From assembly GCF_000737865.1 (NCBI RefSeq), contig NZ_CP007287.1, forward strand, positions 1,496,972-1,560,971: a stretch of 64,000 nt of DNA. Direction: 5' to 3'. The first letter of the stretch is position 1. Each line of letters begins with the position of its first letter. Below are positions 37,315 to 51,521 of the stretch, piece after piece. The notes under the pieces are model-generated. The model worked only from the letters and a program-made list of their open reading frames with translations. It ran no database searches and had not been told where the DNA came from. The translations under genes and the position numbers were made by a program. Source of the DNA: Bifidobacterium coryneforme. GTDB lineage: Bacteria > Actinomycetota > Actinomycetes > Actinomycetales > Bifidobacteriaceae.

Positions 37315-37684
37315 GATTATGACCGTTCAAAAACGGTCAACAGGAACCATATTAGGACACCTTGCCGAAAACCGCACCCAGCGTAGGGCCTGGTGTCGCA
37401 CGATACAACCTTCCCCGCGGTGTGTCAGCGCAGGAAACCGACGAGAACCGGATGACATGCTATGACAGGACTCCGCAGAATCGTCTCAGACGCGCCGTTG
37501 CATCATCCACAATCCCGCGAAGTCACCACCTAACCCCGATTTCTTCCCTAGGGTTGTGTTCCACTGTAGTGATTCCCCCTTCTCTCCTCAAGCGGTCTTC
37601 ACATTCGTCACCGCGCTTCTGGACTGGCTCACCTCACTGCACTTTAGAAACCTGTAATGTGACGAATGTAACAACTTGTTTGCC
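37315..37684 (+). other. Intergenic region without a recognisable gene
   Basis: No frame with a start signal or known motif on either strand. A perfect 7-bp hairpin (GACCGTT/AACGGTC, 37321-37338) lies directly upstream of the tRNA-Arg gene. The remainder leads into the promoter-side region of the first surface-protein gene. Confidence 0.5.
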
Positions 37685-37759
37685 AAATCGTGTATCCTGA
37701 TAAGTGGGGTTATTACGGATGTTGGGGTTTGGATTTGGCTGCGCAATTGAGCCAAATCC
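37685..37759 (+). promoter_or_regulatory. Conserved 5' leader element of surface-protein gene 1
   Basis: AAATCGTGTATCCTGA, shared in near-identical form with the three paralogues, is followed about 30 bases later by a perfect 10-bp hairpin (37731-37740 with 37750-37759) and then CCCCTGGTTC. The coding start is 51 bases further on. Confidence 0.6.
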
Positions 37760-37810
37760 CCTGGTTCCACGCCCAAAACGATGGTGAAACCGGAAAAAGG
37801 AATACTACAA

Positions 37811-40714
37811 GTGTCAGTCTCTGTGAAAATACGACAGCTGGCTGCGGTTCTGTCCGTAGCCATGCTCCTGGGCTGCGGGATGACCGCAACCGTAAAAATG
37901 GCATTCGGCGAAGAAGACGGGAATGAAAGTACCCGAATCGGCACCTCCAACTGTGTGATGGGGAGTTCCACCTACTTGGATTGTTTCCCCGACTACCGCA
38001 TGGCACAACAGGTATCGGCTTCGGTTCCACGCAAAGACCTGCATGCAGCAGACATAATGACTCAGGCAGATGTGGACCAGATAACCAAAGTGTCTATTTA
38101 CTCCCGCGACTGGGCGGTCACCAGTCTGGAAGGCATTCAAAGCCTCACCTCCCTCGTCGATCTGAGCATCGACGGCGGTATTGTCTCCGACCTGAGTCCG
38201 CTGGACGATCCAGTCCTTAGCCGGAACATCAAGCGATTGGAAATCGAAGAGAGCGAAATCACCGATGTTTCGCCCTTACGGAACTACACCAATGCCGAGT
38301 ATATCGATCTGATGTACAACCGGATTTCCGATCTTTCGCCCTTGAAAGACCTCCATCCCAAGGAGCTGAACGTACTGGAACAGACCGTATATCTGGACCG
38401 CAAGGACATACGAGACAATCCCAATCAGGCCATTAGCATGCCCCTTCCGCTTGGCAGAAATGGCGAACCAGTTGCCATAAGTGAAATCAACCCGACCGAC
38501 GGCCTGACACAGACCGACACCGATCTCACCTGGTCAGCACCGGCAGCCGGCGGCACCCGGTCATTCTCCTTCAGCGAGGCCAGCGACGACAAGAGTTACG
38601 AGTTCGAAGGTACCGTGGAGATGGAGGTGGTGACCGCTGAACCCAGACTGGTCACCTTCACCCCCTCCCATCCCGTAAACCCACAACCTACGACCGGGCG
38701 GCAGATCGGCCTGGGACTGACCGTGCCAAAACCGGCCGATCCCGTCTGTCCCGGATACCGCTTCGTGGGTTGGTACACATCCGCACGGGGGATGGGAGGA
38801 GTTCGCTTTAACTTCGAAAAACCCATCTTGGAAAACACAGCCCTGTATGGACGGTGGGTAAGCGATACCCCCAACAACAACAACGACGACGAATCCAACC
38901 CCCCTGAACCGAGCACCCCCGACCCGGACGACAACCAAACGCAGCTCCCTGAACTCGAGAAGATTGTCTGCGAACCCGGAGTCTCGACATACCGCCAGTG
39001 TTTCCCTGACCCTGATCTTGCCAAGCAACTGGCATCTTCAACTGACAAGGAACCTGATGCGGTCCTCACCGAGGAGGATGTAGCCAAACGGTTCAGAGAA
39101 ATTTCCCTGACCGACGTCTGGGATTTCAACGGCATACAGATTCTGAAGAACGCTGAGGCTATTATGCTGGATTACGCTTATCCTGAGCAGGAGCCCCCCC
39201 AATCAGGCCAGACCTCACTGGATTTGCGTCCCTTAGCCGAACTGCCGGAAATTTGGTCATTCGAGTTGTTTGCCTCAGGTGACGTGGAAACAGAAATGGA
39301 TCCTCTGATCACTGACTTCACACCTATGTCCAAAATGAAAGAGCTACGAGAGATCTATATCAACGGGGCCGGCGTGAAAGACCTGAAGGGATTCGAGTCT
39401 TTTACAGATATGCCCCAACTGAGGGAAATAGATCTGGAAGATAACCATATCAGCGACGTCACTCCGTTGGACGGTCTGAAAAACCTGCGTTACATGGAGT
39501 TTCTTTCTCTCGATAGCAATCGCATCTTCGACATGTCCCCTATCGAGGGGCTTTCCAAGTTTCGGACGGAGATTACTGCCATCCAACAGCTAGCCATCGT
39601 ACCCCGACATGAGCTACCCGGAGAGGCCATGGCCATGAGTCTTCCTATCCGCCCGGATGGCAAATATGCCGAGAAGGATATCGACTCTATAAGTGGCAAC
39701 GGTTATCACAAGCGCAGCGATTATGCGGTGGTTTGGGACGCTCCGGTCGTTGACAGCGTCCATAGCTTCGATTTCATGGAGGAGGGAAGCCGGGAGAGCT
39801 CATGGGAATTCGAAGGGACTGTGACGGATCGACCCCTGGATGACAAATCTTCGGCGCGAGACATATACAAGATCGAATTCGACCTGGGCACCGGGAGCAC
39901 CTCTCCTGCCCAGATTCCCGACCAGCTGGTTTATGCGGGAAATCTGGCGAACAAGGTATCCGACCCCGTCCGCTTCAAGCACGTCTTCGACGGCTGGTAT
40001 CTGAACGGAGAGCCCCTTACCCCCGACCACTCCTCAAACGGAAACAAATCTGATTCCCAAGGCAATTCGAACGGAACCCTCGTTGATTCCGGCAATACCC
40101 TGACCAGGAACCTCGCCAACCCGGGAGATGTATTGACCAGGAACCTCCTTTACTCCGGCAGCGATGACAAAAGTCCGACCGGCTCGGACACCACAACGGA
40201 TGAAGGACCCAGTGACTCAGACAGCACTGCGGAGGAGAGCCCGTTCGATTTCGACAACACAAGAATCAACAGAGACATCGTCCTGACCGCCCGGTGGACC
40301 CCGCTCTACACCATGACCTTCGACAGTCAGGGCGGCAGTGCCGTACCTTCCCAGACCGTCCCCGACGGCGAAACGGTCGACGAACCGACAGATCCGACCT
40401 GGGACGGCCATACCTTCCTGGGCTGGTTCACCGAATCGAAGGGAGGCGAATCCGCGGACTTCTCCCAGCCGCTGAGGCAGGACACCACCGTGTACGCACA
40501 CTGGCGCCTGAACCCAACCCCCGCGAACCTCATCACTCCCGGAAACCAAGGTGACCAAAGTCCCGGAACGCCCGTGCCGGGATCCCTGTTCGGCATACTG
40601 GCATCCACAGGTTCCGACTTCCTGGGGTTGGTGTTTGCCGCACTGATCGTAGCGCTGTGCGGCCTTGTCTGCCAGGCCCACCTTCGGTCACGCAGGAGTT
40701 CGGTACCGCGCTAG
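37811..40714 (+). CDS. LRR/InlB-repeat surface protein 1, LASTG-anchored
   Basis: 967 residues; GTG start (MSVSVKIRQL) behind AAAAAGGAATACTACAA, at the same place as in the paralogues. Residues 1-35 are a signal peptide. Then two similar units: a cap with C-x5-ST-x3-CFPD, internalin-type leucine-rich repeats with the DLSPL/DVTPL pattern, an Ig-like part ([11 protein letters not shown]) and a Listeria-Bacteroides B-repeat ([12 protein letters not shown]). The second unit begins near 385. A linker with two LTRNL motifs (near 762-780), a third B-repeat ([13 protein letters not shown], near 832) and LASTG (near 930), a hydrophobic helix and an Arg-rich tail follow. LAxTG is the class E sortase signal. 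Probable adhesin or matrix-binding wall protein; the ligand is unknown. Confidence 0.88.
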   Translation: MSVSVKIRQLAAVLSVAMLLGCGMTATVKMAFGEEDGNESTRIGTSNCVMGSSTYLDCFPDYRMAQQVSASVPRKDLHAADIMTQADVDQITKVSIYSRDWAVTSLEGIQSLTSLVDLSIDGGIVSDLSPLDDPVLSRNIKRLEIEESEITDVSPLRNYTNAEYIDLMYNRISDLSPLKDLHPKELNVLEQTVYLDRKDIRDNPNQAISMPLPLGRNGEPVAISEINPTDGLTQTDTDLTWSAPAAGGTRSFSFSEASDDKSYEFEGTVEMEVVTAEPRLVTFTPSHPVNPQPTTGRQIGLGLTVPKPADPVCPGYRFVGWYTSARGMGGVRFNFEKPILENTALYGRWVSDTPNNNNDDESNPPEPSTPDPDDNQTQLPELEKIVCEPGVSTYRQCFPDPDLAKQLASSTDKEPDAVLTEEDVAKRFREISLTDVWDFNGIQILKNAEAIMLDYAYPEQEPPQSGQTSLDLRPLAELPEIWSFELFASGDVETEMDPLITDFTPMSKMKELREIYINGAGVKDLKGFESFTDMPQLREIDLEDNHISDVTPLDGLKNLRYMEFLSLDSNRIFDMSPIEGLSKFRTEITAIQQLAIVPRHELPGEAMAMSLPIRPDGKYAEKDIDSISGNGYHKRSDYAVVWDAPVVDSVHSFDFMEEGSRESSWEFEGTVTDRPLDDKSSARDIYKIEFDLGTGSTSPAQIPDQLVYAGNLANKVSDPVRFKHVFDGWYLNGEPLTPDHSSNGNKSDSQGNSNGTLVDSGNTLTRNLANPGDVLTRNLLYSGSDDKSPTGSDTTTDEGPSDSDSTAEESPFDFDNTRINRDIVLTARWTPLYTMTFDSQGGSAVPSQTVPDGETVDEPTDPTWDGHTFLGWFTESKGGESADFSQPLRQDTTVYAHWRLNPTPANLITPGNQGDQSPGTPVPGSLFGILASTGSDFLGLVFAALIVALCGLVCQAHLRSRRSSVPR

Positions 40715-40773
40715 TCTCTGACCAGAGCCCACTCTGAAGAGTCCCGAGGCATCAGACCGCCGCCTCGGCGATG

Positions 40774-40811
40774 AACCCGGTCCCCCGGTTACCATCCGCA
40801 GGGACCGGGTT
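40774..40811 (+). terminator. Terminator of surface-protein gene 1
   Basis: AACCCGGTCCC pairs with GGGACCGGGTT. Near-identical stems follow each of the four paralogues. The U tract is short (TTCCCC). Confidence 0.65.
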
Positions 40812-40876
40812 CCCCATATCCGACCACATCCCGCCGGTGAATGGCGCTGTCAGAGGCTACCACGTACCATGAAGGA

Positions 40877-41527
40877 ATGCCGTTTGACGAGGAGCACAAG
40901 GACTTCGAATTTGAGCGTCGCTTCTTTTGCCGGAACCTACCGGAGAAGCTGACAAGCGGGGAGACCCCTACCCTGATAGTGCAGAGCTACTACGTGCACG
41001 AAGACAACTACGCCCTCCGAATACGCCTCCAGGCCGACGACCACGCACTTGATATGAACAGCCACACCGACGCCCTACATACCCTCCTGGAAGCAGGCAG
41101 CCATTTCACCGCAGCCTCCATGACGGCCAAGGGACCATCAGTCGGTGGAACACGGTACGAGGCGGAACGCGCCATCGACATCGGCATCGCCCAGGAGCTC
41201 ATGCTCAGAGGCGGATCCCCAATCGTCAAGAACCGTTACGGTATCTGGCTCGATGAGGATTGGTGGAACCTGGATGTCTTCGGCGGAGAGAATGCGCCGC
41301 TTGTTGTCGCCGAGGTGGAACGCAGCGGCCCCGTCACCGATCTGACCATCCCCGACTTCTGCCTGACGGAGATCACCGACGATCCCAGATTCTCCAACGA
41401 CGGCCTGGCCAACAAACCCTTCAGCCGCTGGGCGGATACCTTCGATAGGGAGCTCGCAGAAAATGGCCCCCACTTCATGACCAATTTCGGGCACAACCGA
41501 ACCGAAGGAAACCCGAACAGCCACTGA
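40877..41527 (+). CDS. CYTH-domain protein (triphosphate tunnel enzyme family)
   Basis: About 216 residues. The N-terminal FEFERRFF gives the E-x-E-x-R/K signature of the CYTH tunnel. YALRIRLQ, MTAKGPSVGGTRYEAERAID, KNRYGIW and LVVAEVE add the alternating charged strands that bind triphosphate and metal. Family members hydrolyse thiamine triphosphate, tripolyphosphate or mRNA triphosphates, or make cAMP; the substrate here cannot be told. Start: the ATG of MPFDEEHK; an ATG 12 codons earlier is possible, and neither has a well-placed ribosome binding site. It stands between surface-protein genes 1 and 2, and a decayed copy follows gene 4. Confidence 0.8.
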   Translation: MPFDEEHKDFEFERRFFCRNLPEKLTSGETPTLIVQSYYVHEDNYALRIRLQADDHALDMNSHTDALHTLLEAGSHFTAASMTAKGPSVGGTRYEAERAIDIGIAQELMLRGGSPIVKNRYGIWLDEDWWNLDVFGGENAPLVVAEVERSGPVTDLTIPDFCLTEITDDPRFSNDGLANKPFSRWADTFDRELAENGPHFMTNFGHNRTEGNPNSH

Positions 41528-41624
41528 AAACAGCGACCACGGCACCACCCGAAACCGTTGTCCCTGCAAACTCGGATGCAAGGAACCAGATTGCGTGGCT
41601 GCCAGGGGTAACTTGCCTTCCGTT

Positions 41625-41701
41625 TAATCGTGTATTCTTACTTTCGGGGTTAATTAGGGATGTTGAAAGTGTGGGTTCAACAACCTTATCGAGTCGAATC
41701 C
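41625..41701 (+). promoter_or_regulatory. Conserved 5' leader element of surface-protein gene 2
   Basis: TAATCGTGTATTCTTA is followed by a weaker hairpin (41673-41681 with 41693-41701; eight of nine pairs, one G-U) and CTCTGGTTCC. The coding start is 53 bases further on. Confidence 0.5.
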
Positions 41702-41754
41702 TCTGGTTCCTCACCCTTTAAACAGTGAAACCGGTGAAAAGGAATATACTACAA

Positions 41755-44700
41755 GTGTCAGTTTCTATAAAGATACGCCCGCTGGCGGCGGCCCTGGCAG
41801 TAGCCACTGTTCTGGCCTGCGGAATTGCCGCAACCAACGAATCGGCCTTCGGAGAAGAAGGAAACGAGAACAAGGCTACCCGTGCCGGTACCTCAAGCTG
41901 TATAGTCGGAAGCTCCACCTTCGCCTCTTGCTTCCCTGATTACAACCTGGCAGTACAAGTGGCGGAGAGCACCGAACCCGATGCCAAGACTCCAGAAGAC
42001 ATCATGACCCAGGCTGACGTAGACGGGCTAACTGATCTCCGTGTTGAAGGGGTCTCCAACCTGGCAGGCATCGAAAGCCTCACCGCCCTCACCAAGTTGT
42101 CCATCTCCATCGGCGGTATTACCGATCTGACCCCCTTGGATAACCATGTTCTGGCGCAGAACATCACGGAGTTGGAACTCGATGAGAATGAAATCACCGA
42201 TATCTCGCCCCTCCGGAACTACACGAATGCCTGGTACATAGACCTGACATGCAACCACATTTCCGACCTATCGCCCCTAAAAGACCTGCATCCCCACACT
42301 TTAAAGGTGTCGGATCAGCACATATATCTGGGCCGCCAGGACCTGCGGGGCAATCCCAATCAGGCCGTCAGCATGCCCATTCCGATCGGCAAGGACGGGG
42401 AACCCGTCACTCCCTTCGATATCGAACCGGCGGATGGTCTGAAACAGACCAACACCGATCTCACCTGGTCCGCACCGGCAGCCGGCGGCCCCCGCTCCTT
42501 CCACTTTGACAACGGCGAGGATCAGGACCACCACTTTGAAGGTTCCGTGCAGCTGGAGGTGATGACCGCCGAGCCCAGACTGGTCACCTTCACCCCCCTC
42601 CAGCCGGTGGACCCGCAGCCCACCACCGGACAACGGGTCGCTCATGGCCTGACCGCCACGAAACCCGCCGATCCGGTCTGCCCCGGATACCGCTTCGTCG
42701 GCTGGTACACCTCCCCGAGGGTGGGAGGGGAACGCTTCAATTTCGAAAAACCCATCGTGGAGAACACCCCCCTGTACGGACGGTGGATCAGCGACACCGA
42801 TGACTCCGGCAACAGCCAGGATGAGTCAACGGACGGGTCCGATGCGGGCGACAACCAAACACCCCTCCCCGAACTCGAGAAGGTGGTCTGCGAACCCGGA
42901 ACCTCGACCTACACCCAGTGCTTCCCTGATGAGAATCTTGCCAAGCAGCTTGCTTCCAGAGCCTGGAAGAGCCCTGAAGCCATCCTTACCCAGGATGACA
43001 TTGATAGGGAGTTCGCTGATGGTATTGTCCTAAGTGACGTATGGAACCTGAACGGTATACAGATTCTGAAGAACATCGATTCCATTGTTTTGGATTACGA
43101 CTATCGGCACTCACAAGACCAGTCTCCGGTAGATCTGCGTCCCCTCTCGGAGCTGACCGAAATCACGTCGTTCCGGCTGACCGGTACAGCAGACAAGAAC
43201 ACGACGGCCTTCCCCCTGGTCACTGATTTCACGCCTCTATCCAAGTTGGTGAAGATGGAGACGATCACTATCAACACGGCAGGATTGGAAAACGTGAACG
43301 GATTTGAGTCCTTCACGGGCATGACCAAGCTCAAAGACATAGACCTGTCCAATAATCGGATCTCTGATGTCAGGTCGCTGTCAGCCCTCAGCAGCCTGCA
43401 CGCACTGTCGGGTATCGACCTCAGAAAGAACGGTATCTTGGATGCGAGTCCCCTCAAACCATTTGAGCAGTCTCCTGCCTACATTTCGATATCTGATCAG
43501 GTAATCATCGTAGGTCGGCACGAATTACCCGACACCACTTTGGCTCTGTCTCTGCCTATTCGTCCAGATGGCAAGTACGTCTTCAATGAGGACGACAACA
43601 TCCATTCGATTTCAGATAAGGGCCGCCATAACCCCAGCAGCTATGAGGTGGTCTGGGACGTCCCGGTCCAGGACACGGTTCACAGTTACGAATTCTGGGA
43701 TGAAGGTTATCAAGAAGGCTCGTGGGACTACAGCGGAATCGTAACCGACCGGCCTGCTGATGACGTATCCGGGCGGGATATATACCAGATTCACTTCGAT
43801 CTAGGCACCGCTCCCACACTTTCCCGGATACCCGATCAGCTGGTGTACTCAGGGAATCTGGCGAGCAAGGTCCCCGATCCCATCCGGTACAAGCACGACT
43901 TCGACGGTTGGTACATGAAGGAAACCCCTGCCACCCCGGACGAGACCCCTGCAAACTCCGATGACACCCTGACCCGGAACCTCTCCGGCACGGGCGACAT
44001 CCTGACCAGAAACCTCCTTGGCTCCGACGACACCGCAGACGACGGTTCCACGGACACCAGCACCACGGTGGGTGACGGCTCGGCGGATTCCGGCACCACT
44101 GCGAAGGAAGTCCTGTTCGACTTTGCCAGCACAAGGGTCAACAAGGACATTGCACTGACCGCCCGGTGGACCCCGCGTTACACCCTGACCTTCGACAGCC
44201 AGGGCGGCAGCGCCGTGTCTTCCCAGTCCGTCCGCGCCGACCAGACTCCCAAGGAGCCGGCAGCCCCGACCCGGGCCGGATACACCTTCCAGGGCTGGTC
44301 CACCGCAGCACAGAACGGCACACCCGTGGACTTCACCCAACTGATAGGACAGGACACCACCGTATACGCCCAGTGGACCCCCGGAACAGCACCGGTAACC
44401 CCCGTGGTACCGGACACGCCCGCCACCCCGAGCACGCCGGTCAACCCGGACACACCTGCCACCCCGGATACACCGGTCAACCCGGGAGCATCCGCTACTC
44501 CTGACACCCCAGTCAACCCAGGTACTCCTCCGACCCCTGATAATCCCTTGGTTTCCGAGGACCCAAACAGTCAGATCAGCACTGACTCTCCGGTCAGTCA
44601 AATGACTACCGGGAAGTACATTACGACATCACGAGGGTCCCGTCTGGGTACCCTCGCCTCCACGGGTTCCGATTTACTCGGATTGATGTTTGGCGCACTG

Positions 44701-44769
44701 GTCATAGTGCTCTGCGGCCTTGGTTGCCAGGCTCACCTTCGGTCACGAAGGAGTTCGGTGCCGCGCTAA
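41755..44769 (+). CDS. LRR/InlB-repeat surface protein 2, LASTG-anchored
   Basis: 1004 residues, the longest of the four; GTG start (MSVSIKIRPL) with AAAAGGAATATACTACAA. Same plan as gene 1: signal peptide, first unit from the cap CIVGSSTFASCFPD, second from [14 protein letters not shown] near 378, B-repeats near 275, 678 and 810, two LTRNL motifs near 739-755. It differs in a long Pro/Thr-rich wall-spanning linker (about 877-935) made of 12-residue repeats such as DTPATPDTPVNP. LASTG lies near 965, followed by a hydrophobic helix and basic tail. The longer linker would hold the head further from the wall. Confidence 0.88.
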   Translation: MSVSIKIRPLAAALAVATVLACGIAATNESAFGEEGNENKATRAGTSSCIVGSSTFASCFPDYNLAVQVAESTEPDAKTPEDIMTQADVDGLTDLRVEGVSNLAGIESLTALTKLSISIGGITDLTPLDNHVLAQNITELELDENEITDISPLRNYTNAWYIDLTCNHISDLSPLKDLHPHTLKVSDQHIYLGRQDLRGNPNQAVSMPIPIGKDGEPVTPFDIEPADGLKQTNTDLTWSAPAAGGPRSFHFDNGEDQDHHFEGSVQLEVMTAEPRLVTFTPLQPVDPQPTTGQRVAHGLTATKPADPVCPGYRFVGWYTSPRVGGERFNFEKPIVENTPLYGRWISDTDDSGNSQDESTDGSDAGDNQTPLPELEKVVCEPGTSTYTQCFPDENLAKQLASRAWKSPEAILTQDDIDREFADGIVLSDVWNLNGIQILKNIDSIVLDYDYRHSQDQSPVDLRPLSELTEITSFRLTGTADKNTTAFPLVTDFTPLSKLVKMETITINTAGLENVNGFESFTGMTKLKDIDLSNNRISDVRSLSALSSLHALSGIDLRKNGILDASPLKPFEQSPAYISISDQVIIVGRHELPDTTLALSLPIRPDGKYVFNEDDNIHSISDKGRHNPSSYEVVWDVPVQDTVHSYEFWDEGYQEGSWDYSGIVTDRPADDVSGRDIYQIHFDLGTAPTLSRIPDQLVYSGNLASKVPDPIRYKHDFDGWYMKETPATPDETPANSDDTLTRNLSGTGDILTRNLLGSDDTADDGSTDTSTTVGDGSADSGTTAKEVLFDFASTRVNKDIALTARWTPRYTLTFDSQGGSAVSSQSVRADQTPKEPAAPTRAGYTFQGWSTAAQNGTPVDFTQLIGQDTTVYAQWTPGTAPVTPVVPDTPATPSTPVNPDTPATPDTPVNPGASATPDTPVNPGTPPTPDNPLVSEDPNSQISTDSPVSQMTTGKYITTSRGSRLGTLASTGSDLLGLMFGALVIVLCGLGCQAHLRSRRSSVPR
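44410..44528 (+). repeat. 36-base tandem repeat coding a Pro/Thr linker
   Basis: Three to four imperfect copies of a 36-base unit code for D/G-TPATP-S/D-TPVNP. Inside surface-protein gene 2; fewer copies occur in gene 4 and almost none in genes 1 and 3. Confidence 0.75.
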
Positions 44770-44829
44770 ACGACGACCCGACCCAGACCGCATAAGCCCC
44801 GATATTTGAGGCAGCCGCCTGGGCCAAAG

Positions 44830-44866
44830 ACCCGGTCCCTCCGGACGCCGTCCGCAGGGACCGGGT
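44830..44866 (+). terminator. Terminator of surface-protein gene 2
   Basis: ACCCGGTCCCT pairs with AGGGACCGGGT, followed by TTCGC. The same stem family as after the other copies. Confidence 0.65.
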
Positions 44867-45010
44867 TTCGCTATATATAGGGGAGTGCAGCACATTCCGA
44901 GGCCAGCACATACCTTCGTAAGCAGGAAGTACTTCACCCTCGCATGACCCCGCCGAAGCTCTTTATGAGGGATTCAATGACAAGATTGCCGCGTGCGAGC
45001 CGCCTTGCTG

Positions 45011-45083
45011 AATCGTGTATTCTGACAGATGGGGGAATGGGGATGTGAAATACGGGTTCGACTGCGCAATCGAGTCGGAACCC
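45011..45083 (+). promoter_or_regulatory. Conserved 5' leader element of surface-protein gene 3
   Basis: AATCGTGTATTCTGAC is followed by a hairpin (GGGTTCGACT, 45054-45063, with 45073-45083; ten pairs and one bulge). The coding start is 49 bases past the hairpin. Confidence 0.6.
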
Positions 45084-45132
45084 CAGGTTTCGCATTCCCG
45101 GAACAGGAAACCGGTAAGAGGGGAAAATACAA

Positions 45133-47991
45133 GTGTCAGTCTCCATAAAGATGCGCCCGCTGGCGGCTGCCGTGGCAATGGCCGCCGTCCTGGCCTGTGG
45201 GATGACCGCAACCAACAGATCGGCCTTGGGAGATGAAGACGGGACAGGGACCGGGACCGCTCCTGCCAACACCTCAGGCTGCATAATCGGAACCTCCACC
45301 ATCGCCGACTGCTTCCCCGATCGGGAGCTGGCGGAAGATGTGGCCTGGTACATCACGCCCCGGAAGAATCCAACGGATATCCTGACGCAGGCTGATATAG
45401 ACGGGCTAACGCGCCTTTATACCAACGACGTTGCCAACCTGGCGGGCATCGAAAACCTCACCGGCCTTACCGAGCTGCACATCCAAGATGGCCTTACTCC
45501 CGACCTGACCCCCTTGGACAACCCTGTTCTGACACAGAACATCACGAAGCTGGAAATCTCTCTTAGCGCAATCTCCGATGTCACTCCCCTGCGGAACTAC
45601 ACCAATGCCGAGTACATAGACCTGTCGGGCAACCAAATTTTCGATTTGTCACCCTTGAAAGACCTGCATCCCAGAACCATGAGAGCGTACGGTCAAGATA
45701 TATTCCTCGGTCGTGAGGACCTGCGGGACGATCCCAACCAGGCCGTCAGCATGCCCCTCCCGATCGACAAGGACGGGGAACCCGTCACCCCAAGCGACAT
45801 CGAGCCGGCGGAAGGCATGGAGCAGACCGCCACCGAACTCATCTGGTCCGCACCAGCAGCCAACGGCCTCCGCTCCTTCAGATTCGGCGACTTTGACAGC
45901 CTCTCTCGCTTTGGCGGCACTGTGCAGTTGGAGGTGGTGACTGCCGAGCCCAGGCTGGTCACCTTCACCCCTAACCAGCCGGTGGACCCGCAGCCCACCA
46001 CCGGGCAGCAGGTCGCCCAGGGCCGCACCGTCACAAAGCCGGCAGACCCCGCCTGCCCCGGATACCGCTTCGTCGGCTGGTACACCTCCCCCAGGGTGGG
46101 AGGCGAACGCTTCGACTTCGGAAAACCCGTCATGGAGAACACCCCCCTGTACGGACGATGGATCAGCGACACCGACAACAACCCCGGCGACGACCAGAAC
46201 GGATCCACCGGGACCACCACCCCGGACCCCGACGAAACCAAGACGCCCCTCCCCGAACTCGAGAAGGTCGCCTGCGAACCCGGAACCTCGACCTACACCC
46301 AGTGCTTCCCCGACGAGGACCTGGCCGAACAGCTCGCAGCCGCAGCAGGCAAGGAACCCCAGGACACCCTCACCCAGGACGACATCGACCGGGAGTTCAA
46401 CGATGACGTCGCCCTCAACGACGTATGGAACCTCAACGGCATACAAATCCTCAAAAACATCAAAACCATCTCACTGGACTACGACTACACGCACGGCCAG
46501 TCTGCGGTGGATCTGCGCCCCCTCTCCGCACTGACCGAAACCACAACGTTCCTGCTGACCGGCACAGCCGACAAGAACACGCCTGTCTTCCCCCTGGTCA
46601 CCGATTTCTCGCCCCTGTCCAAGATGGAAAAGATGGAGAACCTCTCCATCAGCAATGCAGGATTGAAAAGCCTGAACGGAATCGAGTCCTTAGCGAACAT
46701 GAAAGAGCTCAGGGAATTGGAGCTGAGCTATGATCAGATCACTGATCCCGGTCCGCTGGCGGCCCTCAGCGGCCTGCCCTCACTGAAGCAGCTCAACCTC
46801 GACGGCAACAGTATTTTGGACGCGAGTCCTCTCATACCATTCGTGGATAAGTCAATCGCCATGGTTTTAGTAGGTGATCAAGAAATCATCGTAGGCCGGC
46901 ACGAATTCCCCGGCACCAAACTGACCCTGCCCCTGCCCACGCTTCCGGACGGCAGGAACTGCTACCTTGATAGGCGGCAAATCGGAACGATTACAGCTGA
47001 AGGCCGCTATGATCCTAAAAACCATGGGGTTGTTTGGAATGTCCCGGTCCAGGATACAGTCCACAGTTACTCATTCGATGATGGGAGCCAGCGAGAAGGC
47101 GGTTGGTTCCACGGAGGAACTGTAAGCGACCGGCCGATTGGTGATGTGACCGGGCGGGATATATACAAGATCCGCTTCGATCTGGGCACCGCACCCACAT
47201 CCTCACGGATTCCCGATCAGCTGGTGTACTCGGGGAATCTGGCGAGCAAGGTCCCCGATCCCATCCGGTACAAGCACGACTTCGACGGCTGGTACATGGA
47301 GAACACCCCCGACCCCACGGACGAGGACGAGGACGACATGCCGATCTGGCCCTGGAACCGCTCCGGCACAGGCGACGTCCTGACACGGAACCTGGCCGAA
47401 CCCGGCGACGTCCTGACCCGGAACCTCCGCGACTCCAGCGACTCCGACAGCACCGCAGGCGGCGGTTCGGCGGATTCGGGCACCGCCGCGGATGAGGTCC
47501 TGTTCGACTTCGCCAGCACAAGGGTCAAGAAGGACATCGAGCTGACCGCCCGGTGGACCCCGCTCTATATCCTGACCTTCGACAGCCAGGGCGGCAGCGC
47601 CGTGTCCTCCCAGACCGTCCGCGCCGACCGGACACCCAACGAGCCGACAGCCCCGACCCGGGCCGGGTACACCTTCCAAGGATGGTCCACCGAAGCACAG
47701 AACGGCACACCCGTCGACTTCACCCAGCACATAGGACAGGACACCACCGTATACGCCCAATGGGCACCGGTAACAACACCGATCAGCCCTCCGACTCCCG
47801 GCAATCCCCTGGTTCCCGAGAACCCAATCATCCAAACGACTGATCCAGCACCACGAGGGTCCCATGTGGACACCTTGGCATCCACGGGTGCAGCTCTCCT
47901 GGGGCTGGTGTTTGCCACACTGGCCATAGCCATTTGCGGCCTTGTCTGCCGGACCCGCCCTCGGTCACGAAGGAGCTCGGTGCCGCGCTAA
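45133..47991 (+). CDS. LRR/InlB-repeat surface protein 3, LASTG-anchored
   Basis: 952 residues; GTG start (MSVSIKMRPL) behind AGAGGGGAAAATACAA. Signal peptide, then cap CIIGTSTIADCFPD, LRR, Ig-like part and B-repeat (near 274); second cap [14 protein letters not shown] near 380; B-repeats near 682 and 812; two adjacent LTRNL motifs near 749-765 (GDVLTRNLAEPGDVLTRNL). It has almost no Pro/Thr linker before LASTG near 914. Its middle 570 bases are about 98% identical to those of gene 4 although the flanking parts have diverged. Confidence 0.88.
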   Translation: MSVSIKMRPLAAAVAMAAVLACGMTATNRSALGDEDGTGTGTAPANTSGCIIGTSTIADCFPDRELAEDVAWYITPRKNPTDILTQADIDGLTRLYTNDVANLAGIENLTGLTELHIQDGLTPDLTPLDNPVLTQNITKLEISLSAISDVTPLRNYTNAEYIDLSGNQIFDLSPLKDLHPRTMRAYGQDIFLGREDLRDDPNQAVSMPLPIDKDGEPVTPSDIEPAEGMEQTATELIWSAPAANGLRSFRFGDFDSLSRFGGTVQLEVVTAEPRLVTFTPNQPVDPQPTTGQQVAQGRTVTKPADPACPGYRFVGWYTSPRVGGERFDFGKPVMENTPLYGRWISDTDNNPGDDQNGSTGTTTPDPDETKTPLPELEKVACEPGTSTYTQCFPDEDLAEQLAAAAGKEPQDTLTQDDIDREFNDDVALNDVWNLNGIQILKNIKTISLDYDYTHGQSAVDLRPLSALTETTTFLLTGTADKNTPVFPLVTDFSPLSKMEKMENLSISNAGLKSLNGIESLANMKELRELELSYDQITDPGPLAALSGLPSLKQLNLDGNSILDASPLIPFVDKSIAMVLVGDQEIIVGRHEFPGTKLTLPLPTLPDGRNCYLDRRQIGTITAEGRYDPKNHGVVWNVPVQDTVHSYSFDDGSQREGGWFHGGTVSDRPIGDVTGRDIYKIRFDLGTAPTSSRIPDQLVYSGNLASKVPDPIRYKHDFDGWYMENTPDPTDEDEDDMPIWPWNRSGTGDVLTRNLAEPGDVLTRNLRDSSDSDSTAGGGSADSGTAADEVLFDFASTRVKKDIELTARWTPLYILTFDSQGGSAVSSQTVRADRTPNEPTAPTRAGYTFQGWSTEAQNGTPVDFTQHIGQDTTVYAQWAPVTTPISPPTPGNPLVPENPIIQTTDPAPRGSHVDTLASTGAALLGLVFATLAIAICGLVCRTRPRSRRSSVPR

Positions 47992-48050
47992 ACAAGGATC
48001 CGATCCAGGCTGAATAGCCCCGGTACTTCAGGCATTCGCCTGAGCCAAAG

Positions 48051-48086
48051 ACCCGGTCCCCCGGACACTGTCCGCAGGGACCGGGT
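48051..48086 (+). terminator. Terminator of surface-protein gene 3
   Basis: ACCCGGTCCC pairs with GGGACCGGGT, followed by TTCGTATA. Confidence 0.65.
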
Positions 48087-48227
48087 TTCGTATATCAAGG
48101 GGTGCAACCCGAGACCATCGCATATTCTCCCGGAAGCAAGCAGTCACTTCCCCGCCTCTCACCCCAACAAAAACTCTTTTGTGAGGGATTTAACAACATG
48201 ATTGACTCATGCGAGGGCCCTTTAGCG

Positions 48228-48304
48228 AAATCGTGTATTCTGACAGGCAGGGATAACAGGGGATGTTGAATTGTGGGTTCGACCGTGTAATCGAGTCGAA
48301 ACCC
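48228..48304 (+). promoter_or_regulatory. Conserved 5' leader element of surface-protein gene 4
   Basis: AAATCGTGTATTCTGACAG is followed by a hairpin (GGGTTCGAC, 48275-48283, with GTCGAAACCC, 48295-48304; nine pairs and one bulged A) and CCAGATTTC. The coding start is 49 bases past the hairpin. Confidence 0.6.
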
Positions 48305-48353
48305 CAGATTTCGCGTCCCCAAAACAGAGAAACAGGCAAAAGGGGAATTACAA

Positions 48354-51317
48354 ATGTCAGTCTCTATCAAATTACGTCCGCTGGCGGCGGCCGTGGCACT
48401 AGCCACTGTCCTGGCCGGCGGAATGACCGCAACCAACAAATCGGCCTTCGGATATGAAGACGGGAACGGGACCGAACCTGCGCCTGCCGATACCTCAGGC
48501 TGCGTAATCGGGAGCTCCACCTTCGCCGACTGCTTCCCTGATCGTAGACTGGCGGAACAGGTGGCAGAGCATGTCAAGCCCGATGCCAAGACTCCAACAG
48601 ATATCATGACACAGGCTGATGTGGACGGGTTAACGCGCCTCTCTGCCTACGGGGTTTCCAACATGACGGGCATCGAAAACCTCACGGCCCTCACCGAGCT
48701 GAACCTCGGTGACGGCGGTATTATCGACCTGACCCCCTTGGGCAACCCTGTTCTGACACAGAACATCACGGAGTTGGACCTCGGCGATAACGCAATCTCC
48801 GATATCACGCCCCTGAGGAACTACACCAACGCCAGGTACATCAGCCTGTCGAATAATCACATTTTCGACCTGTCTCCCCTGAAAGACCTGCAACCCAGCG
48901 ACCTCGATGTATCGGATCAGACCATATATCTGGGCCGTGAGGACCTGCGGGACGACCCCAACCAGGCCGTCAGCATGCCCCTCCCGATCGGCAAAAACGG
49001 GGCACCCGTCACCCCGATCGACATCGAGCCGGCGGAAGGCATGGAACAGGCCGCCACCGAACTCACCTGGTCCGCACCGGCAGCCGGCGGCACCCGCTCC
49101 TTCAGATTCGAAACCGATTACGGCGAGGACCTGGACCACTACTTCGAAGGCTCCGTGCAGTTGGAGGTGGTGACTGCCGAGCCCAGGCTGGTCACCTTCA
49201 CCCCTAACCAGCCGGTGGACCCGCAGCCCACCACCGGGCAGCAGGTCGCCCAGGGCCGCACCGTCACAAAGCCGGCAGACCCCGCCTGCCCCGGATACCG
49301 CTTCGTGGGCTGGTACACCTCCCCCCGGATAGGAGGCGAACGCTTCGACTTCGGAAAACCCGTCATGGAGAACACCCCCCTGTACGGACGATGGATCAGC
49401 GACACCGACAACAACCCCGGCGACGACCAGAACGGATCCACCGGGACCACCACCCCGGACCCCGACGAGACCAAGACGCCCCTCCCCGAACTCGAGAAGG
49501 TCGTCTGCGAACCCGGAACCTCGACCTACACCCAGTGCTTCCCCGACGAGAACCTCGCCGAACAGCTCGCAGCCGCAGCAGGCAAGGAACCCCAGGACAC
49601 CCTCACCCAGGACGACATCGACCGCGAGTTCAACGATGACGTCGCCCTCAACGACGTATGGAACCTCAACGGCATACAGATCCTCAAAAACATCAAGACC
49701 ATCTCACTGGACTACGACTACACCCAAGACGAGTCGGTTCGAACGGACAAGCCCGCAGTTGACCTGCGCCCCCTCTCCGCACTTACGGAAACCACAGCAT
49801 TCTGGCTGTACGTCATGACTGACGAGGATATGCCGATGTCCCCCGTGGTCACCGATTTCTCGCCCCTGTCCAAGCTGGAAAAAATGGAGCAGATTTCCAT
49901 CAATAGTGCAGGGTTGAAGAGTCCGAACGGATTCGAGTCCTTCACGAACATGAAAGAGCTCGCAGAATTGGACCTCTCCAATAATCAGATCACTGATGTC
50001 AGGCCGCTGGCGGCCCTCAGCAGCCTGCCCTCACTGCAAAACGTCGAACTCAGTGATAACCATATCTCCGATGCAAGCCCTCTCAAGACTTTCGAGTCAT
50101 CAGCAGCCACGATCGATATATCCGGTCAGGAGATTGTTACAGACCGGCATGAGTTACCCGGCACCAAACTGGCTCTGCCTTTGCCCATTCGTCCAGATGG
50201 AAGATACGCGGAGTCGGACATCAGCAGGATAGTAAACCAGGGGCACTACGACGCCAGCAACTATGAGGTGGTCTGGGAAGTCCCGGTCTTGGACAAACCC
50301 CACCGCTTCGATTTCTGGGAGGACAGCTCGCGAGAAGGCGCATGGTACTACGAAGGAACCGTAACCGACCGGCCGCGCGAGGACCTGTCGGCACGGGACA
50401 TCTACCAGATTCGCTTCGAACTGGGTACCGAGCCTGCGTCTTCCTGGATTCCCGATCAGTTGGTGTACTCGGGAAATCTGGCAAGCAAGGTCCCCGATCC
50501 CATCCGGTACAAGCACGATTTCGACGGCTGGTACATGAAGGTGAACCCCGCCACCCCGGACGAGACCCCCGATGATTCGGACGACACCCTTAGCCGGAAC
50601 TTCACCGGTATGGGAGACATCCTGACCAGGAACCTCACCAACCCCGGCGATACCCTGACCAGGAACCTCCCGGATTCCGACGACACCGCAGAAGACGATT
50701 CCACGGACACCAACACCACCCAGAAGGAAGTCCCGTTCGACTTCGCCAGCACAAGGGTCAACAAGGACATCGTATTGACCGCGCGGTGGACCCCGCTTTA
50801 CACCCTGACCTTCGACAGCCAGGGCGGCAGCGCCGTGCCATCCCAGACCGTCCGTGCCGACCATGCACCCAAGGAGCCGACAGCCCCTACCCGTGCCGGA
50901 TACACCTTCAAAGGCTGGTCCACCGCAGCGCAGAACGGCACATCCGTGGACTTCACCCAGCAAATAGGACAGGACACCACCGTGTACGCTCAGTGGTTAC
51001 CGGTGACAGCACCGGTAACCCCGGTGGTACCTAGCACACCCAATACTCCGAGCACACCGGTCAACCCAGATACGCCGGTCAACCCTGACATACCCCCAAC
51101 CCCCGTTAACCCCCTGATTCCGGAGAACCCGGTCAGTCAAACGACTCCCGTCAACCCCGACACGATCGCACGAGGACCTTGGACAGGTACCCTGGCATCC
51201 ACGGGGCCGGCACTCCTGGGGCTGGTGCTTACAGCTCTGGCCATAGCGCTTGGCGGGCTTGTCTGCCAAGCCCGTCTTCGGTCACGCAAGAGTTCCAAGA
51301 GTTCGATAACGCGGTAA
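48354..51317 (+). CDS. LRR/InlB-repeat surface protein 4, LASTG-anchored
   Basis: 987 residues; ATG start ([10 protein letters not shown]), whereas the other three use GTG, behind AAAAGGGGAATTACAA. Signal peptide without the Cys present in the others (VLAGGMTA). Cap [17 protein letters not shown], Ig-like part, B-repeat near 279; second cap near 385, LRR, Ig-like part, B-repeat near 687; three LTRNL-type motifs near 745-773; B-repeat near 817; a short Pro-rich linker; LASTG near 945. The tail ends KSSKSSITR, different from the RRSSVPR of the other three. Wall-anchored adhesin-like protein by inference. Confidence 0.88.
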
Positions 51318-51328
51318 TCAACAACCCG

Positions 51329-51367
51329 ACCCGGTCCCCCGACACCGTTCGCAGGGACCGGGTTTTC
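51329..51367 (+). terminator. Terminator of surface-protein gene 4
   Basis: ACCCGGTCCC pairs with GGGACCGGGT, followed by TTTTCC. It has the best U tract of the four. Confidence 0.75.
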
Positions 51368-51422
51368 CATACCCGGACACAACCGCTGGGAACCTGTAAA
51401 ACCAGAGGCCACCGCAACCCTG

Positions 51423-51521
51423 TAGGAATGCGGTGGCCAAGGAAGACAAAACTGCGAGTTTGGTGCCCTCTCTTCTACCGGAATCCACCGGAGAAACTGC
51501 TGAATGCGGAGACCCCGCCCT
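51423..51521 (+). pseudogene. Remnant of the CYTH gene
   Basis: About 100 bases align with the start of the intact CYTH gene (from AGGAATGCC, 40873 onward), best over TACCGGAATCCACCGGAGAA against its TGCCGGAACCTACCGGAGAA and GCGGAGACCCC against GCGGGGAGACCCC. Lengths differ by a few bases, the start codon region is altered and the rest of the gene is missing. It follows the terminator of surface-protein gene 4, the same place the intact gene holds after gene 1. Confidence 0.65.

Follow-up and report, generated by a model that had tools for sequence, protein, structure and literature searches.

Do the four surface-protein genes that stand in tandem in Bifidobacterium coryneforme share a regulatory RNA ahead of their start codons, or is the inverted repeat found there an element of the DNA or a residue of duplication? 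The question arises from a stretch of 64,000 nucleotides (the window; contig NZ_CP007287.1, positions 1,496,972 to 1,560,971), part of a genome that consists of one contig of 1,755,151 bases. The genes form a tandem array of four and their products, of ~950-1000 amino acids, carry leucine-rich repeats (LRR) and Listeria-Bacteroides repeats. A preliminary description of this DNA had reported a common motif and a hairpin in front of each gene, and had proposed a cis-acting leader RNA or, alternatively, an inverted-repeat operator that coordinates the family. A transcribed, structured leader was found to be the best reading, in view of the promoter position, the constraint on the leader and the retention of its inner stem. 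Two parts of the proposal did not hold, as the motif does not belong to the fold and the hairpin of copy 2 is unsupported. In the explanation preferred here, to which a probability of about one half is given, the genes are separate transcription units, each with a cis-acting leader hairpin that would set mRNA half-life and/or ribosome loading. Coordination of the four-gene family by the leader is purely inferred.

The shared motif and the promoters

The motif AATCGTGTATYCT precedes all four start codons by 122-129 bases (125, 129, 122 and 125 bases in copies 1 to 4), slightly more than the 110-125 bases first given. Motif search placed it on the + strand at 37686..37698 in copy 1 (where it reads AATCGTGTATCCT), 41626..41638 in copy 2, 45011..45023 in copy 3 and 48229..48241 in copy 4. 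The string AATCGTGTATYCTGA is exact in copies 1, 3 and 4, and copy 2 has CTTA at the end (one mismatch). Within the window the motif is barely above chance: allowing up to three mismatches, 4 sites were found against 1.48 expected, a number reached by 5/100 shuffles.

An exact search of the own genome with AATCGTGTATNCT gave five matches (none with the reversed control), namely the four leaders and a site 79 nt before a gene for a DUF4193 protein (Pfam E 6.6e-35). The same string is carried by 23 of the 27 genomes of the genus that were compared, where the reversed control gives one match. Twenty-one of its 23 matches outside the leaders lie 60-93 nt before a DUF4193 gene (21/27 genomes); the other two lie 7 nt before the ATG of apparently one common, presumably leaderless gene. 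At the level of the family it occurs in 103 of 189 genomes, which belong to 8 of 16 genera, and the reversed control occurs in 6; DUF4193 stands downstream in 26 of the 30 further family loci fetched. Since the motif is found upstream of the unrelated DUF4193 gene across genus and family, it is read as a core promoter: it behaves as an extended -10 element (TG-TATNCT) outside the RNA fold. On the same genus and family comparison, the motif was rejected as a component of that fold. A wider use of the motif at promoters throughout the own genome was not supported, as CGTGTATNCT has 7 matches there and its reversed control 9. The case warns against taking conservation among paralogues for RNA structure, the striking motif being a promoter element conserved genus-wide at an unrelated gene.

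The surface-gene promoters have the form TG-TATYCT with a conserved AATC in front and, by eye, no clear -35 box. A sigma-70 consensus scan of the window lists none of the four (5 sites against 4.7 expected). The AATCGTGTATNCT core is shared exactly with the DUF4193 promoters, many of which, by eye, carry a TTTTAC-like box at a distance of 17 nt upstream of the -10, whereas the surface-gene promoters have none. The leader of the own-genome DUF4193 gene, unlike those of surface copies 3 and 4, has no significant fold (z -0.42; 67/200 shuffles as good). Neither the leader nor a DUF4193 promoter element is described in the titles and abstract openings of the literature matches listed. The DUF4193 element itself (L039:2463, which is G000:C1:723461; loci L041-L106) is strongly conserved, with AAATCGTGTATCCTATG in many loci, and several species have a second TGTATYCT ~24-25 nt downstream of it.

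Because the motif is identified as an extended -10, transcription is placed as starting ~7 nt after the hexamer, which would give leaders of 103-110 nt and a predicted start 24-28 bases ahead of the inner stem. The promoter element and its position are borne out by sequence comparison, and with this conserved extended -10 ahead of it the hairpin should fall inside the mRNA.

The leader hairpin and its constraint

The inner stem of the hairpin ends ~50 bases before the start codon in every copy, as had been described, and the stems pair in the way that was claimed. Copy 1 (37717..37774, + strand like the others) has an inner stem of 10 perfect pairs, 37731-37740 / 37750-37759. Those of copy 3 (45039..45099; 45054-45063 / 45073-45083) and copy 4 (48259..48320; 48275-48283 / 48295-48304) contain one bulge each, and the weaker stem of the decayed-looking copy 2 (41656..41717; 41673-41681 / 41693-41701) has one A-C mismatch. 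The extent of the hairpin had been underestimated: in copies 3 and 4 the stem first described is the mere tip of a longer hairpin (~-34 kcal/mol, matched by 0/1000 shuffles), with an outer stem of ~13 pairs below it (45039-45051 / 45086-45099 and 48259-48272 / 48307-48320). In copies 1 and 2 this outer stem is interrupted and weak. Through the additional outer stem the hairpin comes to span ~60 nt.

Folding energies of the hairpin regions are -21.6, -16.5, -34.1 and -33.9 kcal/mol for copies 1 to 4. Set against 1000 dinucleotide shuffles, copies 3 (z -5.2) and 4 (z -6.1) were matched by none (0/1000 each). The z values of the whole leaders are -0.48, 0.06, -3.35 and -3.28. A scan of the whole 64 kb in windows of 66 bases, 22 bases apart, gave z <= -5 in 14 of 5814 strand-windows, among which are copy 3 and a 3' hairpin of the cluster (48027, + strand); copy 4 is absent from the 25 best. 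Comparison of the two strands shows a better fold for sense than for antisense in copy 3 (z -5.2 vs -3.6) and copy 4 (-6.1 vs -2.9), and no such advantage in copies 1 and 2.

These strand comparisons bear on the operator alternative, in which the inverted repeat would be a DNA site just past the promoter, to which a dimeric repressor binds and so coordinates the four genes. The symmetry of the repeat, its place immediately 3' of the promoter and the occurrence of the leader at these four units only (within the genome, E up to 1) would suit such a site, and so would copies 1 and 2, where antisense folds about as well as sense. A half-site conserved in all four sites, as a DNA operator would be expected to have, was not found: copy 1 has GGATTTGGCT where copy 3 has GGGTTCGACT, so that pairing is retained and sequence is not, and only copies 2-4 share GGGTTC. 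The half-site of copy 1 is likewise unlike that of copy 4. The sense-strand advantage of copies 3 and 4, although it is not seen in copies 1 and 2, makes a DNA operator less likely; such a site is considered improbable here, the weaker of the two possibilities offered at first.

The leader is under strong constraint between the two strains in which it is found. Motif and leader together differ at 6/125, 2/129, 7/122 and 0/125 sites in copies 1 to 4, against 20/149, 18/140, 37/147 and 0/150 in the 150 bases upstream. Pooled over copies 1-3, this amounts to 15/376 versus 75/436 changed sites (Fisher 6e-10), and copies 1 and 2 alone give 8/254 versus 38/289 (p 2e-5). The inner stem and loop (columns 48-77) contain one change between the strains over copies 1-3. 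The first 300 coding bases of copies 1 and 2 differ by 14-16% between the strains. Copy 4 shows no difference between them from its upstream DNA through the leader to coding base 300 (window 48079-48653 versus L031:11351-11925), and the coding start of copy 3 is unusually alike (4/294 differences); recent recombination may therefore be involved at copies 3 and 4. The similarity of copy 2 to copy 4 of the other strain begins exactly at the motif, as does that of copies 3 and 4 to its copy 2 (three BLAST pieces). Between copies 3 and 4, similarity extends upstream past the motif.

Retention of the fold was analyzed by a relocation test, in which the observed substitutions were moved to randomly chosen positions with the same base (2000 trials per pair of copies). 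The inner stem of copy 1 was reached in 0/2000 relocations from copy 4, 2/2000 from copy 3 and 3/2000 from copy 2, and that of copy 3 or 4 in 22-70/2000. For copies 3 and 4, relocations arrived at the full hairpin in 0-4/2000 trials (2/2000 for copy 3 to 4), except for 31/2000 from copy 4 to 3; 14 substitutions separate these two hairpins, both of which are strong. These low counts support copies 3 and 4 as whole hairpins and copy 1 in its inner stem, which appears to have been rebuilt with new bases; the full hairpin of copy 1 is weakly supported and that of copy 2, which looks decayed, is not. The earlier suggestion that paired changes keep the fold has support in copies 1, 3 and 4 and none in copy 2. 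Pair counts were made on the 7 distinct leader sequences (21 pairs) with 500 shuffles. Both the fraction of cells paired (89.8%) and the covariation score (0.315) lie above 500/500 shuffles and all six slides, and 8 cells changed on both sides (0/500 shuffles as high), bearing in mind that related sequences may exceed shuffles even without structure.

Other results weigh against a maintained leader RNA. The hairpin regions of copies 1 and 2 fold no better than dinucleotide shuffles (z -1.1, 143/1000; z -0.7, 229/1000). The full hairpin of copy 1 was reached in 116, 160 and 278 of 2000 relocations, and copy 2 was reached readily both as a full hairpin (249, 261 and 463/2000) and as an inner stem (354-436/2000). 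Pairs with changes on both sides number 4/21, which 110/500 shuffles matched, and the 13 further pair types were equalled in 488/500. The predictions leave the start codons partly paired, with unpaired values of 0.33, 0.64 and 0.36 in copies 1, 3 and 4 (overall 0.10-0.67). The 7 distinct sequences come from no more than four paralogues, in two strains, that are related by tandem duplication. Support for the fold comes from few independent events. The covariance-model search of other Bifidobacterium genomes that had been proposed was carried out, and its model (R1) recovered leaders only in the two strains, which belong to one species. In the 27 genus genomes (2/27 with leaders) all of its matches at E up to 1 were the eight leaders already known. 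The family search, with stricter filters by which weak matches may be lost, likewise gave these eight at that E limit, in 2/189 genomes, both of the same species, and none in the other 187. A distant homologue, in genome G017, shares with copy 4 only a 12-nt block (ACAGGGGATGTT), and the small hairpin that comes after it is a different one.

Several of these points would fit a hairpin that is a functionless by-product, a quasi-palindrome left by tandem duplication, whose arms template switching during replication, or else gene conversion, has kept alike. One study indicates that single template-switching events can create and maintain matched stem arms (PMC8794818). The perfect 10-bp inverted repeat of copy 1, next to the bulged stems of copies 3 and 4, is what one such switch could give, and the decayed look of copy 2 and the restriction of the leader to a single species agree with this origin. 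It accounts poorly for the strong constraint between the strains, with inner stem and loop nearly unchanged, and for copies 3 and 4, whose full hairpins are both strong despite their substitutions. A by-product is regarded as unlikely, although it has to be taken seriously. Comparison and prediction, which give the constraint, the fold in copies 3 and 4 and a rebuilt inner stem in copy 1, favour the leader hairpin as a probably real but local and modest control element.

Possible function and spread of the leader

What such a hairpin might do is suggested by the place of the ribosome-binding site, which is predicted to lie outside the main hairpin. Its mean unpaired probability is 0.54-0.83 in copies 1, 3 and 4 of both strains, and 0.44 and 0.39 in copy 2 of the two strains (the window value referring to a start three bases off). 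Sequestration of the ribosome site in the main fold, as in an RNA thermometer or translational riboswitch, was not predicted. A T run after the leader stems, as in an attenuator or terminator, is absent in the four copies, and the terminator scan lists no site at the leaders. Rfam gave three tRNAs only and no cis-regulatory match over the whole window at gathering score, and no cis-regulatory match in 37600-48500 at E up to 5. A known Rfam riboswitch or leader class was therefore rejected; the likeness to such RNAs consists of the position before the start codon, and the difference is that no curated model matches. A mostly unpaired ribosome site, the lack of a T run and the lack of an RNA-family match argue against a thermometer, a translational switch and a terminator, and leave a stability or standby element as what would be the simplest remaining function.

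The leader might instead adopt two states, the 3' arm of the outer stem alternatively pairing with GAAACCGG beside the ribosome site and so forming a switch or attenuator. Folding predictions show this other hairpin in copies 1, 2 and 3, and it is strongest in copy 3 of the sister strain (-8.5 to -12.3 kcal/mol), where it prevails in the predicted leader fold; it makes use of the outer-stem 3' arm. It is nearly absent in copy 4 (-1.4 kcal/mol; 1517-1767/2000 relocations as good), and relocations into copies 1-3 and the sister copy 3 reached it in 82-485/2000 trials, or 1200/2000 from the sister copy 3 to copy 3. With neither an Rfam match nor a T run behind the stem, a two-state leader is considered very unlikely. 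As a conserved element, the alternative 3' hairpin was set aside, being unsupported by the relocation test though predicted in three copies. Slighter still are the chances of a species-specific two-state cis-regulatory RNA, born with the tandem family, that coordinates which of the four internalin-like proteins is displayed.

In the favoured explanation, that of a hairpin affecting mRNA half-life and/or ribosome loading, RNA polymerase would start at each gene's own extended -10 promoter, whose core is common with that of the DUF4193 gene. The transcript would open with the untranslated leader, in which the hairpin is followed by the ribosome-binding site. The hairpin would then serve the mRNAs of the surface proteins as a spacer and a structural barrier at the 5' end, and not as a ligand switch; folding in the cell and an effect on stability or translation are what we infer. 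The E. coli ompA 5' stem-loop is the type case of a structured leader that stabilises or tunes a surface-protein mRNA. The layout is similar, with a hairpin in the 5' untranslated region, the ribosome site outside it and a surface-protein gene downstream. Unlike ompA, the present case concerns four paralogues in a bifidobacterium, and the likeness is one of layout. B. coryneforme and B. indicum are inhabitants of honey bees. If functional, the leader is an example, from a symbiont of the bee gut, of how a surface-protein family that arose by duplication brings along its own promoter and hairpin leader as a module.

The combined picture is probably one of a structured leader that is restricted to one lineage and follows a promoter core found throughout the genus. 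Model R1, at E up to 10, had no match over 11 loci of distant homologues, that of G017 included. The block shared by G017 and copy 4, with a score reached by 17/1000 shuffles, is suggestive and would be the sole hint of an older leader. The G017 homologue (L075:4661-6190) is a single protein of 509 amino acids with LRR and Listeria-Bacteroides repeats in a different setting, with, by eye, thiamine-type genes on one side and a GTPase gene on the other.

The surface-protein genes and their surroundings

The four genes lie on the + strand at 37811..40714, 41755..44769, 45133..47991 and 48354..51317. Genes 1 to 3 start with GTG and gene 4 with ATG, the start codons being chosen from the ribosome sites in front and the aligned protein start MSVS. 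Gene 1 codes for LRR and Listeria-Bacteroides repeats, and all four proteins have a LASTG-type tail. Of the four, genes 1 and 3 were scanned with internalin models, and their matches fall far short of the cut-offs. Gene 1 is followed by a strong 3' hairpin (40760..40825, + strand; ACCCGGTCCC...GGGACCGGGTT; -32.1 kcal/mol) with a short T run, possibly a terminator. Related hairpins stand after genes 2, 3 and 4 (44825-44885, 48045-48100 and 51320-51375; -35.2, -30.4 and -24.4 kcal/mol). The terminator scan, whose loop limit is 8, does not list them. Since every surface gene has a related strong 3' hairpin, each is probably its own transcription unit, made up of promoter, hairpin leader, gene and 3' hairpin.

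Among the 27 genus genomes the full-length protein family was found in the two strains only, with partial matches in 5 more. A scan of named genomes with two peptide patterns, which may leave out records near the own genome, gave one locus, in Bifidobacterium indicum DSM 20214. In the sister strain (G014), gene 3 (L031:8413-11260) is split into two open frames of 535 and 629 codons, and it is a single frame in the window. Between copies 1 and 2 lies a gene for 228 amino acids (40841-41527) without a Pfam or NCBIfam match. A decayed copy of the beginning of this gene, together with the 3' hairpin, follows copy 4 (51329-51516; alignment score 105, against 30 for the best of 200 shuffles), from which it is probable that surface gene and neighbour were duplicated as one piece.

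The presumably leaderless gene that has the motif 7 nt before its ATG codes for a small putative membrane protein (L045, L054, L102; genomes G006, G015 and G089). Two genomes have the same 1400 bases here without a difference, and a genome from a second genus of the family agrees at 1296/1400, which suggests that the region may be mobile.

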